Assembly: GCA_016926475.1 (NCBI GenBank)
Contig: JAFGON010000041.1
Span: 1-7,793, forward strand
Length of the DNA stretch: 7,793 nucleotides
Direction of reading: 5' to 3'
From: a candidate division WOR-3 bacterium
GTDB taxonomy: Bacteria > SDB-A
A model generated the notes under the pieces. That model did not search any database, was not told the DNA's origin, and was given only the letters and a program-made list of their open reading frames with translations. Below, in pieces: positions 1 through 7,553 of the stretch (within the stretch, counting starts at the first letter, position 1; every line of letters starts with the position of its first letter). The translations under genes and the position numbers were made by a program.

Positions 1-1188
1 TATCGCCGTCGAATCATCGTCTGTCCAGTATTGTGTCGCTATACCGACGAACTGGTCGCTCGTGCCGTATCTCGTGCAGGCTACAAAGGGCATTACTGTG
101 TGGACGTCCCCCAGGATGAAGAATCCGGGCGCAGACCATGTTCCTCCCCCATCCGACGAGACATACTCAAGGGATCTCGTAGCTGGGTCGTCAACTGATC
201 CGGATTGATATACAAAGTGGATGTAGTTTGTTGGATAAGCGTTGTGTCTCGCCGAGGCTAAAACCGGTTTTTGCAGATTCGCGTCTTGTCCCAGGACTAT
301 ATGGTCTATCCAGCCTCCAAAATAATTTTGGTATCTGGAGATCCTGATGTCGTTGCTAGCGGAGTTGTAAAAATTCATAATGTATGCCCTGTCGTCAGGT
401 CCTGCGCATACATCAAAATCAGTTGGATTTATCTGGTTGTATGTCAGCGTGTTTAATGTCCATGTCGCTCCTCCGTCGGCTGAAGCGCATCTGTATAGTC
501 TCCAAGGTGAATAAGGGACAGTAAATGCAGCGTATATGTGCGGGTCTGTTTCGTCGGTAATGTCCATTTCGACCCAGTTAATATCGTTGTAAGTTGTGGA
601 CGAAAAATGGTACCAGTCGAATGCCGAATAGTCCGCTTTCAATCTGCGATAGGATAACAGCGTATCACTTCCGTAGATATATACTGTGGTGGTGTAGATG
701 TATGGGTTTAAAGTCTGGGCTTGGACCCTCATGTCGTAACTCAAAACATTGACACCGGTGCCCTGAAACCACATCTCCCAGCCCTTAACCCATGTATAGC
801 CCATGTCGGTGGACCTGTAAATCCAAATCGTGTCCGTAGCTCCGTGGTTAGACAAAAGAGCGACGTAGATGTATCCATTGGTATCGTAATCAAAAGCCAA
901 CCTTGTCACGTTTGACTGGACAGGGCATTCATTTGTCAACAAAAGATCGTCCCCCCAAAGAGGAGCATAAACCGATGGAGGTTGTGAAAGGTTTAAACCG
1001 CCCGACATCTCTTCGATTGACGGCGTAAAACCAGAAGTATTTATCTCCTGGTTCAAGATATCCGAGGATGATTCGCCTTCACCGACCTGTTCTATAACGG
1101 TTGCTTCTTTGAAACAGGCCTGGCTCACTTGCGCCTGCAGACCCATAAACGCGAACAGGAAAGACGTTACAACCATGACCGGTTTCAT
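1..1188 (-). CDS. Secreted Asp-box (BNR-like) beta-propeller protein, C-terminus beyond the window
   Basis: This reading frame stays open for 396 codons from the ATG at 1188 to the left edge, so the stop lies outside. The start follows a strong AGGAGG. Residues 1-24 form a signal peptide (short Lys start, hydrophobic core about 4-17, small residues at 19 and 24), so export is expected. Three Asp boxes of the S-x-D-x-G-x-T-W type lie at residues 126-133, 236-243 and 344-351. Similar beta strands centred on aromatic-Ile/Val-aromatic recur near residues 107, 164, 218, 270, 323 and 381, a period of about 54. This indicates propeller blades, with an Asp box in every second one. Asp boxes occur in sialidases, other glycosidases and many non-enzymatic surface proteins. 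I see no sialidase Arg triad or FRIP motif, so I do not call an enzyme. The gene lies 85 nt downstream of the VWA gene, on the same strand, with its own promoter candidate. Confidence 0.85.
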   Translation of the reverse strand, partial: MKPVMVVTSFLFAFMGLQAQVSQACFKEATVIEQVGEGESSSDILNQEINTSGFTPSIEEMSGGLNLSQPPSVYAPLWGDDLLLTNECPVQSNVTRLAFDYDTNGYIYVALLSNHGATDTIWIYRSTDMGYTWVKGWEMWFQGTGVNVLSYDMRVQAQTLNPYIYTTTVYIYGSDTLLSYRRLKADYSAFDWYHFSSTTYNDINWVEMDITDETDPHIYAAFTVPYSPWRLYRCASADGGATWTLNTLTYNQINPTDFDVCAGPDDRAYIMNFYNSASNDIRISRYQNYFGGWIDHIVLGQDANLQKPVLASARHNAYPTNYIHFVYQSGSVDDPATRSLEYVSSDGGGTWSAPGFFILGDVHTVMPFVACTRYGTSDQFVGIATQYWTDDDSTAI

Positions 1189-1273: not shown

Positions 1274-2431
1274 TTACAAGCAGTTTTTTGAAGCATTCAA
1301 GGCAGATGAGACGCCGTTGATTATTTTTTCGATGTCTTTCGGGGACACATCGTATCTCTCTTGGTCGCTGTATATTGTCTTTGAAGATTTCACCCGAGGA
1401 TACAATCTAATAAGTTTTCCTCCGGCATTCTCAGTTATCATTTCTGAAAGCTTTTCTCCAGGTAAAAGCTTTGAATCCTTTTCACCGGGGGGTAAACTTT
1501 TATCCCCGTTGCGATTTTTGAAGTTGGGATTTATTAGAAGAAGAAATATTTTTGATTTTTTAAAAAGCTTTGCCGCAGAAAGGGAATTTATGTATGCGGG
1601 GTCTTCGAAAATATTTTTAAACTTTCCGGTAAGTGGTTCGGGATAGCAATCACTGAGAAGCACCACAAGGCTTTTCGACCCTCTGTTTCTGAACTTTTCA
1701 AGTCTTGCCATGTCGAGTGATTTCAAAAGACCGTCTGCGAGTGGAGTTTTTCCGTGGACTTTAAGAGATAAAAGGCTTTTTGTGACGACTTTGTAGTTGT
1801 GAGTTGGGTGGTTGAGCGTTTTTGCTTGTTGCCCCTGAAGAGAGATTACGCCTATTCGGTCTTTGTTTTTGTTGAAATAAAAGGTCAGCGAATTTATAAT
1901 TTTTGAAAAAGCCCTTGCGAAATTTATCACCGATGTGCTGACGTCGACGACGAGGATCATGTTAAGGCTTTGATGAGCTGCTCTGTCCCAACCCAAAAGA
2001 TCTTTTTGCCTGAGTTCAACCGGTTTTTTTGAGCTTTGTTTCTCGGAAAAAATCTTTAAAAGTGAATAGTAAAAAGCGAGGGAATTTTCGCCGCTTTTGT
2101 AAAGTGTAAGTCGGTAATTTCTTCCTGTGACAGTGTTTTTTACCAAAGCTCTTCTCGAAAATTTTCTCGTCCGGAAACTCTGTGTTCTTCTGAATCTCTT
2201 TAATATTTTCCTGAATTCAAAGCGTGCAGACTTGAAAATGCCTTTTTCGGACTCGAAAAGGGGCGTTTGTTGTCTGTACTCCGGCTTCTTTTTAAAGTTA
2301 CCTTTTTTTTTGAAATGGAAATTTCCTGGATAGAGTGTCAATCCTGCGTTTTTGTTCAGCCGCAGATACTTTTTGAACAGGTGTAAAATTTTCTTTTTTA
2401 AGGTGGGCTTTTGGATGCCCACCACAATCAT
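1274..2431 (-). CDS. BchD/ChlD-like von Willebrand factor A (VWA) domain protein, short form
   Basis: This 385-residue protein resembles the C-terminal half of Mg-chelatase subunit D. A complete MIDAS metal site is visible: D163-x-S165-x-S167 after a hydrophobic strand, T229 in a KTPLADGL context and D261 after a VVLLS strand. In the family this site binds Mg2+ and an acidic partner, coupling the AAA+ ring to the catalytic subunit. Residues about 103-160 also follow the usual pre-VWA pattern of BchD (GR..R, a KSG..SLAF segment, then DLLGWDR). The AAA-like N-terminal domain of true BchD is missing. In its place residues 1-95 are very rich in Lys and Arg, with no recognisable fold. The ATG overlaps the TGA of the ATPase gene (ATGA, 2431-2428), so translation is probably coupled. 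An AGGAGG lies about 16 nt upstream, too far to be optimal. CoxE- or ViaA-type VWA proteins are alternatives, but the pre-VWA pattern favours the ChlD group. Confidence 0.85.
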   Translation of the reverse strand: MIVVGIQKPTLKKKILHLFKKYLRLNKNAGLTLYPGNFHFKKKGNFKKKPEYRQQTPLFESEKGIFKSARFEFRKILKRFRRTQSFRTRKFSRRALVKNTVTGRNYRLTLYKSGENSLAFYYSLLKIFSEKQSSKKPVELRQKDLLGWDRAAHQSLNMILVVDVSTSVINFARAFSKIINSLTFYFNKNKDRIGVISLQGQQAKTLNHPTHNYKVVTKSLLSLKVHGKTPLADGLLKSLDMARLEKFRNRGSKSLVVLLSDCYPEPLTGKFKNIFEDPAYINSLSAAKLFKKSKIFLLLINPNFKNRNGDKSLPPGEKDSKLLPGEKLSEMITENAGGKLIRLYPRVKSSKTIYSDQERYDVSPKDIEKIINGVSSALNASKNCL

Positions 2432-3579
2432 TTTTTTGAGGTGTCTTCCTCCTGTATGCTGGAAACACCGTTTTTTTCATGGTTTTTCGGCGGTTTTGAT
2501 CTACTGTCGGATAAGGATGTTAAAGAAATATTTTTTCCAGAGTTGACGAAGTCTTCTTTTTTTATATAATTTTCCCTGAAGACCCTTTCGATTTCTTCGA
2601 AAGATGGAGGTTCGAGAAGGCCGCTGTCTCTTGTCCTGTGGCAGAGCGTCATCAAAGCGGCTTCGAGGACATCGTCGAATACAGTTTCGGTCCTTTTCCT
2701 CAGAGCAGATATTGTCATGGCGGTTTTTGTGATTATTATATCCGGTCTTTGTCCGTCCACTTTAAGTTCGGAACACGACTTGGTTATAGTCGAAAGAAGA
2801 CTGTCGTCGAGTGTAACTTCCTTCAGAAGTTTTTTTGATCTTTCCAAAGACTCTCTTAAGTCATTCTGGTCTTTTCGGAAAGATTCAAAAAAAGAATCCG
2901 GATTGTTTTCAAATGACAGCGCCCTTCTGACAATCTCGGCTCTCTGTTCAGGGGCTTTAGGTGATTCAGCCCTGACGCATAGAGGAAACCTGTCGAGTAT
3001 CTGTGGCCTGAGCTCTCCTTCTTCGGGATTCATGGTACCCACGAGGATGAAATCAGACCTGTGTTTTATTGAAAATCCTTCTCTCTCTATCACGTTCCAG
3101 TGAAGGGCGGATACGTCGAGTATGTCGTCGACAAGATGGTCTGGAAGGAGGTTGACCTCGTCTATGTATAAAATATTTCTGTGAGCCATTGCGAGTATGC
3201 CGGGCAGTATGCTCTTAACGCCTTCTTTGAGAATTTTCTCGATGTCTATGCTCCCGAGGAGTCTGTCTTCGGTAGTGCTCAAAGGCAAATCAATTATCCG
3301 CCCTTTTTTCTTTTCGGCTTCATGCTGTTTTGCCTCCCTGCAGAAAGTGCAAAAATGCTCGGGTGCCTGGGGGTCACATCCGAAAACGCAGTTTTTCACC
3401 GATAAATATTCCGGCATAATGTCTTCTACAGAATGGACAAATGTGCTCTTACCTGTCCCTTTTGGACCGGATATCAAAAGCCCTCCGATTTTAGGGTTGA
3501 TTATGTTGGCGAGGTAGGCGGTTTTCAGAAAATCCATTTGGACTATGGCTGTTATGGGAAATCTTGTCAATACTTCCAT
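2428..3579 (-). CDS. BchI/ChlI-like AAA+ ATPase (Mg-chelatase subunit I family)
   Basis: This 383-residue ATPase matches the Mg-chelatase I subunit along most of its length. It shows an N-terminal FPITAIV start, Walker A GPKGTGKS (38-45), a Cys cluster C64/C68/C77/C80, the LP-L-TTEDRLLGS-DIEK segment (98-115), Walker B LYIDEVNLL (137-145, D140/E141), then VGTMNPEEGELRPQ-LDRF (180-198) with sensor-1 N184 and the conserved arginines R191 and R197. The C-terminal helical part carries the family's DGQRPDI element. In characterised chelatases I forms a hexameric ring that, with D, powers metal insertion by an H or CobN subunit. None is encoded here, so the substrate is unknown. Residues from about 337 onward form a Ser/Lys-rich tail of nearly 50 residues beyond the usual end. 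The start is supported by GGGGAGG 4 nt upstream. It is 23 nt downstream of the sirtuin gene and overlaps the VWA gene by 4 nt. Confidence 0.93.
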   Translation of the reverse strand: MEVLTRFPITAIVQMDFLKTAYLANIINPKIGGLLISGPKGTGKSTFVHSVEDIMPEYLSVKNCVFGCDPQAPEHFCTFCREAKQHEAEKKKGRIIDLPLSTTEDRLLGSIDIEKILKEGVKSILPGILAMAHRNILYIDEVNLLPDHLVDDILDVSALHWNVIEREGFSIKHRSDFILVGTMNPEEGELRPQILDRFPLCVRAESPKAPEQRAEIVRRALSFENNPDSFFESFRKDQNDLRESLERSKKLLKEVTLDDSLLSTITKSCSELKVDGQRPDIIITKTAMTISALRKRTETVFDDVLEAALMTLCHRTRDSGLLEPPSFEEIERVFRENYIKKEDFVNSGKNISLTSLSDSRSKPPKNHEKNGVSSIQEEDTSKK

Positions 3580-3583
3580 TTTG

Positions 3584-3590
3584 CCTCCCC
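3584..3590 (-). promoter_or_regulatory. Shine-Dalgarno site of the AAA+ ATPase gene
   Basis: GGGGAGG on the minus strand lies 4 nt before the ATG at 3579, inside the 23-nt gap after the sirtuin stop. No promoter fits in this gap, so the ATPase gene most likely depends on the sirtuin transcript. Confidence 0.7.
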
Positions 3591-3602
3591 TGAATTGTTG
3601 TG

Positions 3603-4307
3603 CTATTCTATCACAGGAAAATTGCCTTCAGAAAGTACCAAAGAAGCCGGAAGTCGTATGTTGATATCAAACATTTGTGATAAGTCATTCGGTTCGGTGT
3701 TTATTTCGACTGTAAAAGCCCCTTTTTTTTTGGCGAGAAGAGGAAAACCCGCCGCGGGCCACACTACCGCCGAAGTGCCGACGCTTACGAAAAGATCGCA
3801 TTCTGAGATTTCATCAAGCGCTTTCCCGATTATTGCAGGATCCAATGAATCGCCGAACCAGACAATATCCGGTCTAAACCATTCACCGCAGAGATCGCAT
3901 TTATACGATGGATAATTTTCCGAAAAGATTTCCTTTTTTCCGCACATGCATCTTATCCTCCAAAGCGAACCGTGAAGCTCTATGACGGACCCACTGCCTG
4001 CTCTTTGATGCATTCCGTCTATGTTCTGCGTTATCACGCTGACGTCTGTTCTCGATTTCTGGAGCTCAGAAATCCAGAAATGACCCCCATGGGGCAGGCA
4101 TTTCAAGACGGCTTTTCTTCTCAACTCGTGAAACCTCAGCACTTTTTCCGGGTTCTTCTCAAAAGCATTTTGGCAGGCGTATTCCTCCCAGTTGTAATCA
4201 TTCCAGATTCCGCCTTTTCCCCTGTAAGTTGGAACACCGCTCTCCGCGGACATCCCTGCTCCGGTGAAAAAGACTATTTTTTTGAATTTTTTAAAGATTC
4301 TCCCCAT
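3603..4307 (-). CDS. cobB: Sir2-family NAD-dependent protein deacylase (CobB/SIRT5-type sirtuin)
   Basis: This 234-residue protein is a complete bacterial sirtuin, which removes acyl groups from protein lysines using NAD+. Visible motifs are GAGMSAESG (16-24) with PTYRG (26-30) for NAD, QNID (94-97), catalytic H112 in LHG, Zn ligands C120/C122 and C137/C140, VWFGD (149-153), VGTSAVVWPAAGFP (176-189) and the late INTEP element. The AESG form and the FHELRR helix (59-64) place it near class III (CobB, SIRT5). There the acyl-binding pair is Tyr-x-x-Arg; here it reads H60-x-x-R63. The start is forced: the codon just before the ATG is an in-frame TAG, and the next Met is M19, inside the NAD-binding loop. 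There is no Shine-Dalgarno, and a consensus promoter ends 7 nt upstream. It is the first gene of an apparent operon with the AAA+ and VWA genes. Confidence 0.95.
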   Translation of the reverse strand: MGRIFKKFKKIVFFTGAGMSAESGVPTYRGKGGIWNDYNWEEYACQNAFEKNPEKVLRFHELRRKAVLKCLPHGGHFWISELQKSRTDVSVITQNIDGMHQRAGSGSVIELHGSLWRIRCMCGKKEIFSENYPSYKCDLCGEWFRPDIVWFGDSLDPAIIGKALDEISECDLFVSVGTSAVVWPAAGFPLLAKKKGAFTVEINTEPNDLSQMFDINIRLPASLVLSEGNFPVIE

Positions 4308-4314
4308 CTATAAA

Positions 4315-4342
4315 ATCATAAATGCCGACAGAATTATGTCAA
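4315..4342 (-). promoter_or_regulatory. Consensus sigma70-type promoter of the sirtuin-AAA+-VWA operon
   Basis: On the minus strand a perfect TTGACA (4342-4337) is followed after 16 bp by TATGAT (4320-4315). Transcription should start about 7 nt further on, at or next to the sirtuin ATG at 4307. No ribosome binding site lies between, so the mRNA is predicted to be leaderless or nearly so. Confidence 0.65.
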
Positions 4343-4417: not shown

Positions 4418-6085
4418 ATGAAAAATTATGTCTGCATCGCGGTTGAGCTTAAAACCAAATGCAGGAATTGCGACGGAACAATCCACATAAACGCTTTAGC
4501 TGAAAAGATACTATGCCCTTACTGCAAATTCGAGTTGTGTTTGAGTCCCGAGACATGGAAAGGGATATTGGAAGACCCGATAAAAGACACCTCGAATTAT
4601 GAAGAAGGAGAGGGTACAAATTCTACGGTCATGGGGGAAATCAATTATCAAATAACATACGGAAAACAGACCCCGAGATTTCCCGAAAGCAAAAAAAGTA
4701 TAGACATAAAAAAAATTGACGATTACGCCGAGCAGGGTTATGTAGAAGACCCTGACACAGGTAAAAAATATTCTTTGAGGAAAATACCCCAAAAGTATTC
4801 AAAAATATTTCCAGGGGCTCTATATCTGGCTATGGAAGACGCGGAGCTCATTCCAGGAGGAGATAAAATTTCTGAAGGGAAAACAGAAAATTCTACCGAA
4901 CCTGTCGCTTTCGCTTGCCCAAAATGCGGTGGATTTCTCGATATTGACGGAAAAGACAGAATGGTAAAATGCTCGTTCTGCAACGCATCCGTTTACCTTC
5001 CCGACGATCTGTGGATGAGGTTGCACCCGGTTAAGACGATTACGAGGTGGTATGTAATTTTAAACGAAAAGGAAATACCCTACACATGGGACTCTGAAAT
5101 CTGGGATATGGCAATCGACAGACAGGGTGATATATTCATGGCTTTGGAGAGTGAAGACTCAAAACTCGATCTTGTATCTCTCGACCAAAATTTCAAGAAG
5201 AAATGGTCGAGGGGAGATCTCGAATACTACCCCAAGACATCCAACGGCAACACGAAACTCGACATAGACAGCAGGGGAAGACTGATGCTTTGGAGCGGGG
5301 ACAGAGAATCCCTTCTTTTTCTGAATTCCCAGACCGGTGAGACCATGGATATTATAGGCGGAAAAGAGGGCAGATCTCCGGAGGAGGGCAAAGAGCCTTT
5401 CACCATGAAAAACGTGTTTTCACTCTGCGCGGACACCGACGAAACATTTCTTGTGTTTCACAGAAGATCGAAAGTTGACGCGGACGGGAATCCATTTTAT
5501 GAGCTTCTCAGGTTTAATTTTGACGGGAAAGAACAGATGACTTGGTTTGAAGACGAAGACAGCGGCGGATTTTTCGGGAAAATCAAAAAAATTTTCAACA
5601 AGACAAAAGGCCCTCAATATTTCGACAGCCTCAAAGACATCCCGACAAAATTCAGGGATTCGGATATACAAATCTCTTTGGGGCAGGACGGGAATTACTA
5701 TCTTCTGAGTTTCAACAAACTGGCCAAGTATTCAAGAGAAGGAAAAAAAGTTTATTCACTTAAACTCGACTGCGATTACACTTACTCCAAAGCGGTTGCC
5801 GACAAGGAAGGCAGCGCATACGTCCTCTCTCACGGTCAGAATGATAGGTACTATGTTTTAAAAATTTCAGGGGATGGGTCTGCGGTGAGGCGCCATCTTC
5901 TCTCTGTCGTTGACGGTGGTGTAATATCTAGCGAGGAAACTCTCGGTCTCGATGAAAAAGGCTCTTTTTATCTAGCGGGATATTCAGGGAGAATGAGGAT
6001 AGTGTCCAGTGAAGGAAAGCTTTTGTTTCGAAGCGAAGAGGCGGAAAAAGACGAAGAGAGAAAAATCGAAGAGGCAAAGCGCTGA
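4418..6085 (+). CDS. Two-zinc-ribbon, six-motif beta-propeller protein of unknown function
   Basis: I do not recognise this 555-residue protein as a named family. It has no signal peptide or membrane segment, so it is probably cytoplasmic. Two zinc ribbons have identical spacing, CxxC-x14-CxxC: C15/C18/C33/C36 and C167/C170/C185/C188. Each is followed by a similar Leu-x3-Trp segment (for example LPDDLW), suggesting an internal duplication. From about residue 229, six strand motifs resembling NHL or Vgb-type propeller repeats (D-x-x-G-x-hydrophobic) occur near residues 229, 279, 333, 417, 457 and 507. The longest gap (333-417) contains a basic amphipathic insert, FFGKIKKIFNKTKG (385-398). The C-terminus is a charged Glu/Lys helix. 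The combination suggests a scaffold or sensor, with zinc ribbons for binding nucleic acid or protein and a propeller for docking; that is inference. It is transcribed divergently from the sirtuin operon and ends 82 nt from the convergent FG-GAP gene. Confidence 0.85.
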   Translation: MKNYVCIAVELKTKCRNCDGTIHINALAEKILCPYCKFELCLSPETWKGILEDPIKDTSNYEEGEGTNSTVMGEINYQITYGKQTPRFPESKKSIDIKKIDDYAEQGYVEDPDTGKKYSLRKIPQKYSKIFPGALYLAMEDAELIPGGDKISEGKTENSTEPVAFACPKCGGFLDIDGKDRMVKCSFCNASVYLPDDLWMRLHPVKTITRWYVILNEKEIPYTWDSEIWDMAIDRQGDIFMALESEDSKLDLVSLDQNFKKKWSRGDLEYYPKTSNGNTKLDIDSRGRLMLWSGDRESLLFLNSQTGETMDIIGGKEGRSPEEGKEPFTMKNVFSLCADTDETFLVFHRRSKVDADGNPFYELLRFNFDGKEQMTWFEDEDSGGFFGKIKKIFNKTKGPQYFDSLKDIPTKFRDSDIQISLGQDGNYYLLSFNKLAKYSREGKKVYSLKLDCDYTYSKAVADKEGSAYVLSHGQNDRYYVLKISGDGSAVRRHLLSVVDGGVISSEETLGLDEKGSFYLAGYSGRMRIVSSEGKLLFRSEEAEKDEERKIEEAKR

Positions 6086-6167: not shown

Positions 6168-7553
6168 TTATAAGCCTGATTCGGAACCTAACCAGACGAA
6201 AATAGCGCCCTGCGAATTGTCTTCACCCATGATTCCGTAAGCTCCGGCGATGATGTCATCGTATCCGTCTCCGTTGACGTCTCCAGCTCCTGAAACGGAA
6301 ACGCCTAACTTGGCTTCTTCAATTCCCGATTCAATCAGTTCGTGCCTGCTGGTCTGGAGGCCCGATGGTGAACCCCAAAACACATAGACCGCTCCTTCAA
6401 AATGCTCGCCGTTGCTGTAGTCGTGCGCCCCGACGATTACGTCATGGAAGCCGTCGCCGTTTATGTCGCCGGCGGAAGAAACCGAATACCCGAAAATGGA
6501 ATTTTCAACTCCAGAAGAAAAGGACCAGCCCAAAAGGTCGGAAAGCCCCTCTTTTTGACCTGTGAAGACAAAACCCGCGCCTTCCCAGGATTTTGTGCCG
6601 TTGAACATTGGTGCCCCGATTATGATTTCATCAAACCCGTCATCGTCTGCGTCGCCCGCGGTTGAGACTGAAGTTCCGTATTCAGCGCCTATCTGTATGG
6701 GCATGGCCTTCCAGTCCGGTGAATTTGAAAGTCCTTCGGCGTTCCCGTAAAAGACAAGCGCCGCGCCGTATTCGTTTTCTTCGAAGTTGAAAAATGGTGC
6801 GCCGGCGATTATGTCCGAAAGACCGTCACCGTTTAAGTCGCCGGCGGACGAAACGCTGTGACCGAGAAAAGCCCATTCCTGTCCGGACACGTAAGTCCAA
6901 TTGGGTTCATCTTCAAGACCGGAAGACGATCCAAAATAGACGAAAATTCCGCCCTCGTACTCTTCAAGTTGCGAATAGTTTGGAGAACCTGCTACTACAT
7001 CGTCAAAACCGTCTCCGTTTACGTCACCCGCGCCGGACACAGAAAGTCCGAAAAATATTTCTTCCCCTTTGATCTCGGATGTCCACGAGGGTGTCGGCGG
7101 CAGTCCTTCAGAAGAACCGTAAAAGACGAATACTTTTCCCTGGTTCCAGAACCCACCGTCAAATCTAGGGCTCCCGATTATGATATCGTCAAAACCGTCG
7201 CCGTTTACGTCTCCTGCCATGGAAACCGAGAAACCGAAATACGCGTCTTCCTGGTCGGACTGCCATGACCAGTCAGGATCAGAGGGCAATCCTTGTTCGC
7301 CTCCGTAGAAAACGAAAGCGGCTCCTTCAAAAGCCTCTTCTTCCGTGAAATAAGGAGCCCCGGCGATGATGTCGTCGAAGCCGTCGCCGTTGACGTCTCC
7401 CGCTCCTGAAACGGAAATACCAAAACTCGCATAGATGTATTTCGAAGTAAAACGCCAATCCGGTTCAAAGTCAGAAGAAAATAGTGATACGGCAAAAAAA
7501 AGGGATATCAAAACAATTTTTTCTCGCGGGTTAAAACCAATAAAGTTTTTCAT
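6168..7553 (-). CDS. Secreted FG-GAP (integrin-alpha-like) seven-bladed propeller protein
   Basis: This 461-residue protein is a signal peptide followed only by FG-GAP repeats. Residues 1-27 have basic residues (R10, K12), a hydrophobic core (13-24) and Ser-rich cleavage region, predicting export. The seven repeats each carry a P-x-W-like start, (F/L/Y)-G-x-S-V-S, an AGD-x-NGDG-x-(D/S/H)-D calcium-type loop, GAP or a variant, G-A-x-F-V-F and a closing GL. The AGD elements fall at residues 51, 113, 175, 237, 299, 361 and 423, exactly 62 apart. Repeat 5 has the loop variant ADDDGFDE, and repeat 7 has GAY instead of GAP. Seven repeats are the number needed to close an integrin-type propeller. 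No C-terminal sorting, anchoring or enzymatic domain follows; the stop comes right after the last repeat. The likely role is calcium-dependent adhesion or binding outside the cell. The start has AAGGAAG 4 nt upstream. Confidence 0.93.
   Translation of the reverse strand: MKNFIGFNPREKIVLISLFFAVSLFSSDFEPDWRFTSKYIYASFGISVSGAGDVNGDGFDDIIAGAPYFTEEEAFEGAAFVFYGGEQGLPSDPDWSWQSDQEDAYFGFSVSMAGDVNGDGFDDIIIGSPRFDGGFWNQGKVFVFYGSSEGLPPTPSWTSEIKGEEIFFGLSVSGAGDVNGDGFDDVVAGSPNYSQLEEYEGGIFVYFGSSSGLEDEPNWTYVSGQEWAFLGHSVSSAGDLNGDGLSDIIAGAPFFNFEENEYGAALVFYGNAEGLSNSPDWKAMPIQIGAEYGTSVSTAGDADDDGFDEIIIGAPMFNGTKSWEGAGFVFTGQKEGLSDLLGWSFSSGVENSIFGYSVSSAGDINGDGFHDVIVGAHDYSNGEHFEGAVYVFWGSPSGLQTSRHELIESGIEEAKLGVSVSGAGDVNGDGYDDIIAGAYGIMGEDNSQGAIFVWLGSESGL
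6171..7472 (-). repeat. Seven in-frame 186-bp coding repeats (FG-GAP units)
   Basis: The region coding for residues 28-461 divides without remainder into seven units of 62 codons (7 x 186 = 1302 bp). Each unit contains a GC-richer core coding for the AGD-NGDG calcium loop, visible on the plus strand as recurring variants of ccgtcgccgtttacgtc. Units differ at many positions, so they are diverged copies rather than identical tandem repeats. Confidence 0.9.

Follow-up and report, generated by a model that had tools for sequence, protein, structure and literature searches.

Chelatases, MoxR proteins, dynein-midasin and YifB form one group of AAA+ ATPases that work with von Willebrand factor A (VWA) partners (PMC7159879). 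Teaching accounts assign the chelatase motors to the synthesis of chlorophyll and B12. They include the putative cobaltochelatases of family TIGR02442, which are fused ChlI-ChlD proteins serving CobN, and the class I Mg-chelatases (ChlI/ChlD or BchI/BchD). NorQ-NorD, like CbbQO, RavA-ViaA and CoxD-CoxE, combines an AAA+ ring with a VWA partner carrying a metal ion-dependent adhesion site (MIDAS) to remodel a target protein or insert a metal; cryo-electron microscopy of NorQ-NorD supports a ring that twists the target-holding VWA partner and opens the target for metal insertion (PMC13036017). Genomes with chlI and chlD and no chlH or cobN have also been reported (Spirochaeta thermophila and Brevefilum fermentans), the function of the pair being left unexplored (PMC9227772). 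Here we describe an AAA+/VWA gene pair of the chelatase type on a contig of a candidate division WOR-3 bacterium (JAFGON010000041.1). The window analyzed is the entire contig (7,793 bp), and the source genome has 2.15 Mb (completeness 100, contamination 0.27). We favor the reading that the pair is a stand-alone, chelatase-derived remodeling motor that does not serve a CobN/BchH chelatase and probably has a target other than a tetrapyrrole.

The AAA+ ATPase (383 amino acids; positions 2428–3579, minus strand) and the VWA protein (385 amino acids; 1274–2431, minus strand) read, from their sequences, as one TIGR02442 (ChlI/ChlD-type) protein split in two, because the halves match positions 1–349 (E 2.4e-122, 409.5 bits) and 393–581 (E 1.4e-20, 73.3 bits) of the same model. 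The family's order of ChlI-type AAA+, linker and VWA is kept in two adjacent genes. Neither half reaches the curated full-length cut-off (779 bits), as homologous proteins that have been split and have diverged. The AAA+ protein also matches the BchI-ChlI profile (E 8.6e-98), and the solved structures closest to it by sequence are ChlI/BchI (8osf and 1g8p). Its motifs are intact: Walker A (GPKGTGKS, 3445–3468), Walker B (ILYIDE, 3157–3174), sensor 1, an LDRF arginine-finger-like motif and sensor 2. Between the two Walker motifs lies a four-cysteine motif (CX3CX8CX2C, 3340–3390; like the Walker motifs, on the minus strand), which is not in L006, the ChlI-type protein of genome G049. We rejected it as a special feature of the locus because it is common in TIGR02442 relatives.

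The solved structure closest to the VWA protein by sequence is the VWA domain of BchD (2x31). TIGR02031 matches the protein at residues 135–261 only (model positions 403–529), and the AAA-like domain that BchD and ChlD carry ahead of their VWA domain is not present. The pair further differs from a class I Mg-chelatase in that the genome has no ChlH/BchH. A fold model of the protein gave a VWA domain with a mean predicted local distance difference test score (pLDDT) of 70 and a core mostly above 85, and its Foldseek matches include the NorQ-bound VWA domain of NorD (9qh8).

We compared the locus with a phylum sample of four genomes of 94–100% completeness: the source genome (G000), two of the same genus (G001 and G002) and one of the same family (G003). 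Within the genus, NG86 ratios of nonsynonymous to synonymous substitution (dN/dS) were 0.11–0.18 for the AAA+ and VWA genes (AAA+ against G002 only) and 0.09–0.10 for a sirtuin gene (3603–4307) beside them, which indicates working proteins. A preliminary description of this DNA had reported the sirtuin, the BchI-type ATPase and the MIDAS-containing VWA protein on one strand, and open reading frames and profiles bear this out. The 23-nt gap that it gave between sirtuin and AAA+ genes (3580–3602) is also there and carries a ribosome-binding-site-like stretch (AGGGGAGG). The 4-nt ATGA overlap of the AAA+ and VWA genes (2428–2431) exists in the source genome but is not kept in G001 and G002, which have ATA at the position of the VWA ATG and start the VWA gene at a GTG 5 nt past the AAA+ stop. 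The same GTG codon is present in the source genome (2422). Because the overlap is not kept in the congeners, we rejected the idea that it reflects a tight coupling of the two genes.

The ligand-binding face of the VWA protein sets it apart from CobN-linked relatives. All MIDAS residues are present, yet loop 1 reads DVSTS (1931–1945, minus strand) where DASGSM is usual, and an NHPTHN motif (1796–1813, minus strand) stands where CobN-linked relatives have LPPT(S/N)S. The last MIDAS aspartate is followed by a signature, SDCYPEPLT...EDPAY (1592–1654 with the aspartate, minus strand). In the fold model this stretch forms the loop that connects the strand ending in the aspartate to the following helix. 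This position would place it beside the ligand-binding face, at which a change in target specificity should become visible. Among the loci examined, SDxxPEP[LI]T follows the last MIDAS aspartate in 12/12 bacterial loci of the clade described below and in 0/87 others (11 loci have the strict pattern and L162 has PEPIT). Conversely, the general MIDAS motif D[AGS]SG[ST]M occurs in 80/87 other loci and in none of 19 clade loci.

These sequences form a well-separated branch. A tree of 64 AAA+ domains parted 21 clade members from 43 others with support of 100/99 (the bootstrap had not fully settled), and a VWA-domain tree parted 20 from 59 with support of 100/100 (with long-branch warnings). The clade spans several bacterial phyla and Asgard archaea and Bathyarchaeota; its named members are Zixiibacteriota, CSSED10-310, Gemmatimonadetes, Thorarchaeota, Baldrarchaeota, Njordarchaeota and Bathyarchaeota records. 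It contains both split pairs and fused genes (L028, L030–L032 and L169). The pair described here combines active AAA+ motifs with a MIDAS VWA partner encoded alongside, a trait of the helix-2-insert group of AAA+ proteins, and across the clade the two parts are co-encoded or fused. Neighbor clustering found no third gene common to the clade loci, and none was prominent in six further loci.

The clade also differs in the company that it keeps. The preliminary description had noted the lack of a chelatase subunit and proposed a genome search for BchH- or CobN-like proteins; neither the source genome nor G001–G003 gave a match to PF02514, the profile that covers CobN, BchH and ChlH. As a control, the profile found its targets in 5/14 known genomes, including Synechococcus and methanogens. 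CobN was likewise not found in the genomes of the closest relatives (L025–L029, L031–L033, L036 and L040), whereas genomes with more distant relatives had it in 44/47, 3/4, 5/7 and 18/26 cases, by batch. In total, CobN is encoded in 1/21 clade genomes, the clade label having been chosen after the first CobN counts, versus 70/84 genomes with other members (Fisher 1.6e-11). When 386 genomes were searched with the VWA alignment, 12 matches were strong (E <1e-65), followed by a gap to 1e-27. The 12 include the four phylum genomes and two already counted (G201, which is L028, and G169, which is L040); six are new, and these were assigned to a class from the VWA score ahead of the CobN search. Within this sample, CobN is found in 0/12 strong-match genomes versus 23/33 others (p 2e-5), both p-values being indicative only because related genomes are not independent.

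Porphobilinogen deaminase (HemC, PF01379) is needed for standard tetrapyrrole synthesis. It is absent from all four phylum genomes and from 18/21 clade genomes, and the control search found it in 11/14 known genomes. Without HemC, it is very unlikely that a chelatase here works on a tetrapyrrole made by the cell itself. With neither a catalytic subunit nor HemC found in the phylum, we conclude that the pair probably does not serve a tetrapyrrole chelatase.

A genuine chelatase could nevertheless be at work if its large subunit were unlinked or unrecognized, or if an imported corrinoid or heme served as its substrate. Both proteins are chelatase-type by sequence, and many of their relatives adjoin CobN. 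We consider this explanation unlikely given four genomes of high completeness with no PF02514 match, from a profile that performed as it did in the control; the lack of HemC; and a MIDAS face unlike that of CobN-linked relatives. The search left no hidden CobN or BchH in the phylum genomes as a candidate. The same absence of CobN beside its usual partners could also point to a decaying remnant of a chelatase after CobN loss. This is the least probable of the explanations that we weighed, since all motifs are intact, dN/dS values are 0.09–0.18 and the CobN-less state is shared by a deep clade with members in both Bacteria and Archaea.

Several points weigh against a stand-alone motor, starting with the late choice of the clade label and the relatedness of the genomes already mentioned. 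The genome of L030 encodes CobN, elsewhere than at the locus, and three clade genomes have HemC. CobN-less members occur outside the clade too (e.g., G027, G042 and G374), so the clade cannot be defined by a lack of CobN alone. The substrate could also be an imported corrinoid or heme, and most of the genomes compared are metagenome assemblies. Furthermore, we infer protein remodeling from the family.

Outside the clade, locus L147 (genome G151) has a VWA protein with SDCRPNVPW after the MIDAS aspartate in a genome without CobN. This pair may represent a second CobN-less lineage, as may those of G027, G042, G236, G374, G249 and G381.

A stand-alone motor could work as its better-known relatives do. 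The pair descends from the ChlI/ChlD line. By homology, the AAA+ protein would assemble into a hexameric ring on which the VWA protein docks, its Mg-binding MIDAS face holding a protein target. ATP hydrolysis would then twist or open the target, as is thought for NorQ-NorD in iron insertion. The target would most likely be a protein, perhaps a metalloenzyme, in need of opening or metal loading. Complex formation, target holding by the MIDAS face and remodeling or metal loading are steps that we infer by homology; what the analysis itself recorded is which genes are present, their motifs, the clade and the lack of both CobN and HemC. Thus, the part of the preliminary description that proposed a protein-remodeling or metal-insertion machine holds as the best reading of the pair, but not the part that made the sirtuin its member or leader.

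Comparison with described systems separates what is known from what this locus adds. Like the TIGR02442 cobaltochelatases, the pair has the sequence and order of both halves, the four-cysteine motif and a MIDAS; it differs in being encoded by two genes, in lacking CobN and HemC and in its changed MIDAS and post-aspartate loop. The NorQ-NorD group shares the AAA+ ring and MIDAS VWA partner (PMC13036017) but belongs to the MoxR subclade and is encoded with, or tied to, a known target enzyme, whereas the present pair is of the chelatase subclade with no target gene nearby. ChlI/ChlD pairs with neither large subunit nor pathway are already known; in those cases, however, a single frameshifted chlD gene is thought to yield both proteins (PMC9227772). 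This analysis adds the CobN-less clade with its strong tree support, the MIDAS signature of the clade and the finding that HemC is nearly absent. In a limited search of the open-access literature we found the clade nowhere described, although a description may exist.

We tentatively extend the reading to the clade as a whole. Its members could be chelatase-derived motors with a MIDAS surface of their own, remodeling or metallating a protein target in hosts mostly without tetrapyrrole synthesis; they may represent the ancestral state of the Mg- and Co-chelatases, or the chelatase motor may have been put to a new use later. A well-separated branch kept in cells without the chelatase or its substrate pathway suggests that the motor has another job. 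The clade, the signature and the list of hosts make this role testable, since the target is likely to be held by the surface that the signature marks and the phylum has small genomes, which limits the number of candidates.

The sirtuin (234 amino acids; 3603–4307, minus strand) matches Pfam SIR2 (E 1.1e-43) and NF001753, a protein deacylase subfamily of NCBIfam (249.7 bits; cut-off 243), and is class III-like. It has the Sir2 core and zinc cysteines, and its class III substrate motif reads HxxR in 3/3 congeners, with histidine in place of the tyrosine of the usual YxxR. Upstream is the consensus promoter that the preliminary description had pointed out, a sigma-70-type TTGACA-16-TATGAT (4315–4342, minus strand) matching at 11/12 positions. 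Two further 11/12 matches in the window fall within genes. The pair of elements upstream of the sirtuin is probably a real promoter because TTTGACA is invariant in G000, G001 and G002, each with a TATAAT-like element. As the -10 element ends 7 nt ahead of the sirtuin ATG, the transcript would probably be leaderless. In the source genome, the sirtuin may be co-transcribed with the AAA+/VWA pair.

The preliminary description went further and suggested that the sirtuin may be an NAD-dependent controller of the machine, which would deacylate lysines on either the VWA or the AAA+ protein so that the NAD+ level sets motor activity. The shared strand, the 23-nt gap and adjacency in G000 and G002 are in keeping with this, and adjacency thus extends beyond the source genome, yet it is confined to the genus. 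In G001, the sirtuin orthologue (70% identical) keeps its own promoter and lies 2.3 kb upstream of the pair, from which two genes for secreted-looking proteins, both on the other strand, separate it. In G003, another gene (121 amino acids, no Pfam match) stands upstream of the pair, and the best sirtuins in the genome are 35–37% identical. No sirtuin was matched by tblastn in 80 loci from other genomes or by blastp in the six further clade loci. The lysine-rich VWA N-terminus suggested as the substrate does exist as a basic region (2102–2431, minus strand; 32 lysines or arginines versus 4 aspartates or glutamates in the first 110 residues), but it is mostly genus-specific, being absent from the G003 and L025 homologues, and mostly of low pLDDT. 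Together with the sirtuin's own conserved promoter, these observations make sirtuin control hardly credible, and we rejected the sirtuin operon as a system on neighborhood evidence. The sirtuin is probably a genus-level neighbor rather than a component of the motor, since synteny within a genus is weak evidence for function. Its constant neighbor in 3/3 congeners is instead a divergently transcribed zinc-ribbon-like gene.

This divergent gene (4418–6085, plus strand) could in turn be taken for the third part of a ternary conflict system of the MoxR-vWA-beta-propeller type, which likewise combines a helix-2-insert-group AAA+ protein with a vWA protein (PMC7159879). Its product has two CxxC...CxxC zinc-ribbon-like motifs and a repeat-like C-terminal half, the repeats resembling beta-propeller blades as judged from an alignment, and bpMoxR gives a weak match (E 0.03). 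However, the match reaches 13.8 bits where the cut-off is 27. Furthermore, in the known system the vWA protein carries the propeller as a fusion (PMC7159879), and neither profile search nor fold model found a propeller domain on the VWA protein here. The divergent family has strong matches in the four phylum genomes only, among 98 searched, and in G003 it is on a different contig from the AAA+/VWA pair. PADLOC gave one weak AAA similarity and nothing further, which led us to reject a defense system. A ternary system is therefore highly improbable, and the divergent gene does not appear to be part of the motor. We also rejected its product as a beta-propeller partner: a single-sequence fold model had a mean pLDDT of 35, a PDB profile search gave no firm match and the family is phylum-specific.

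The divergent family has no Pfam domain above cut-off. The first ATG of its open reading frame (4322) probably precedes the true start, for which comparison with the congeners favors 4418. The gene lies beside the sirtuin in G000–G002 and is duplicated in G001; besides the window copy, members are at L105 (2411–4060 and 4123–5799) and L106 (7062–8723). Past this gene in G001 and G002 are putative genes, named by reading their sequences, for a hybrid-cluster-protein-like protein and an Rrf2-type regulator (L105, 9–1628; L106, 4490–6121).

A search of the window for RNA families and tRNAs found none. Directly downstream of the VWA gene, 3/3 congeners encode a signal-peptide-like, BNR-repeat-like protein (window 1–1188, minus strand; L105, 11269–12564; L106, 11965–13229), so synteny is steadier here than on the sirtuin side. 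At the other end of the window (6168–7553, minus strand), we identified a secreted-looking protein made almost entirely of FG-GAP repeats (Pfam E 3e-59), resembling an integrin-alpha-like beta-propeller.

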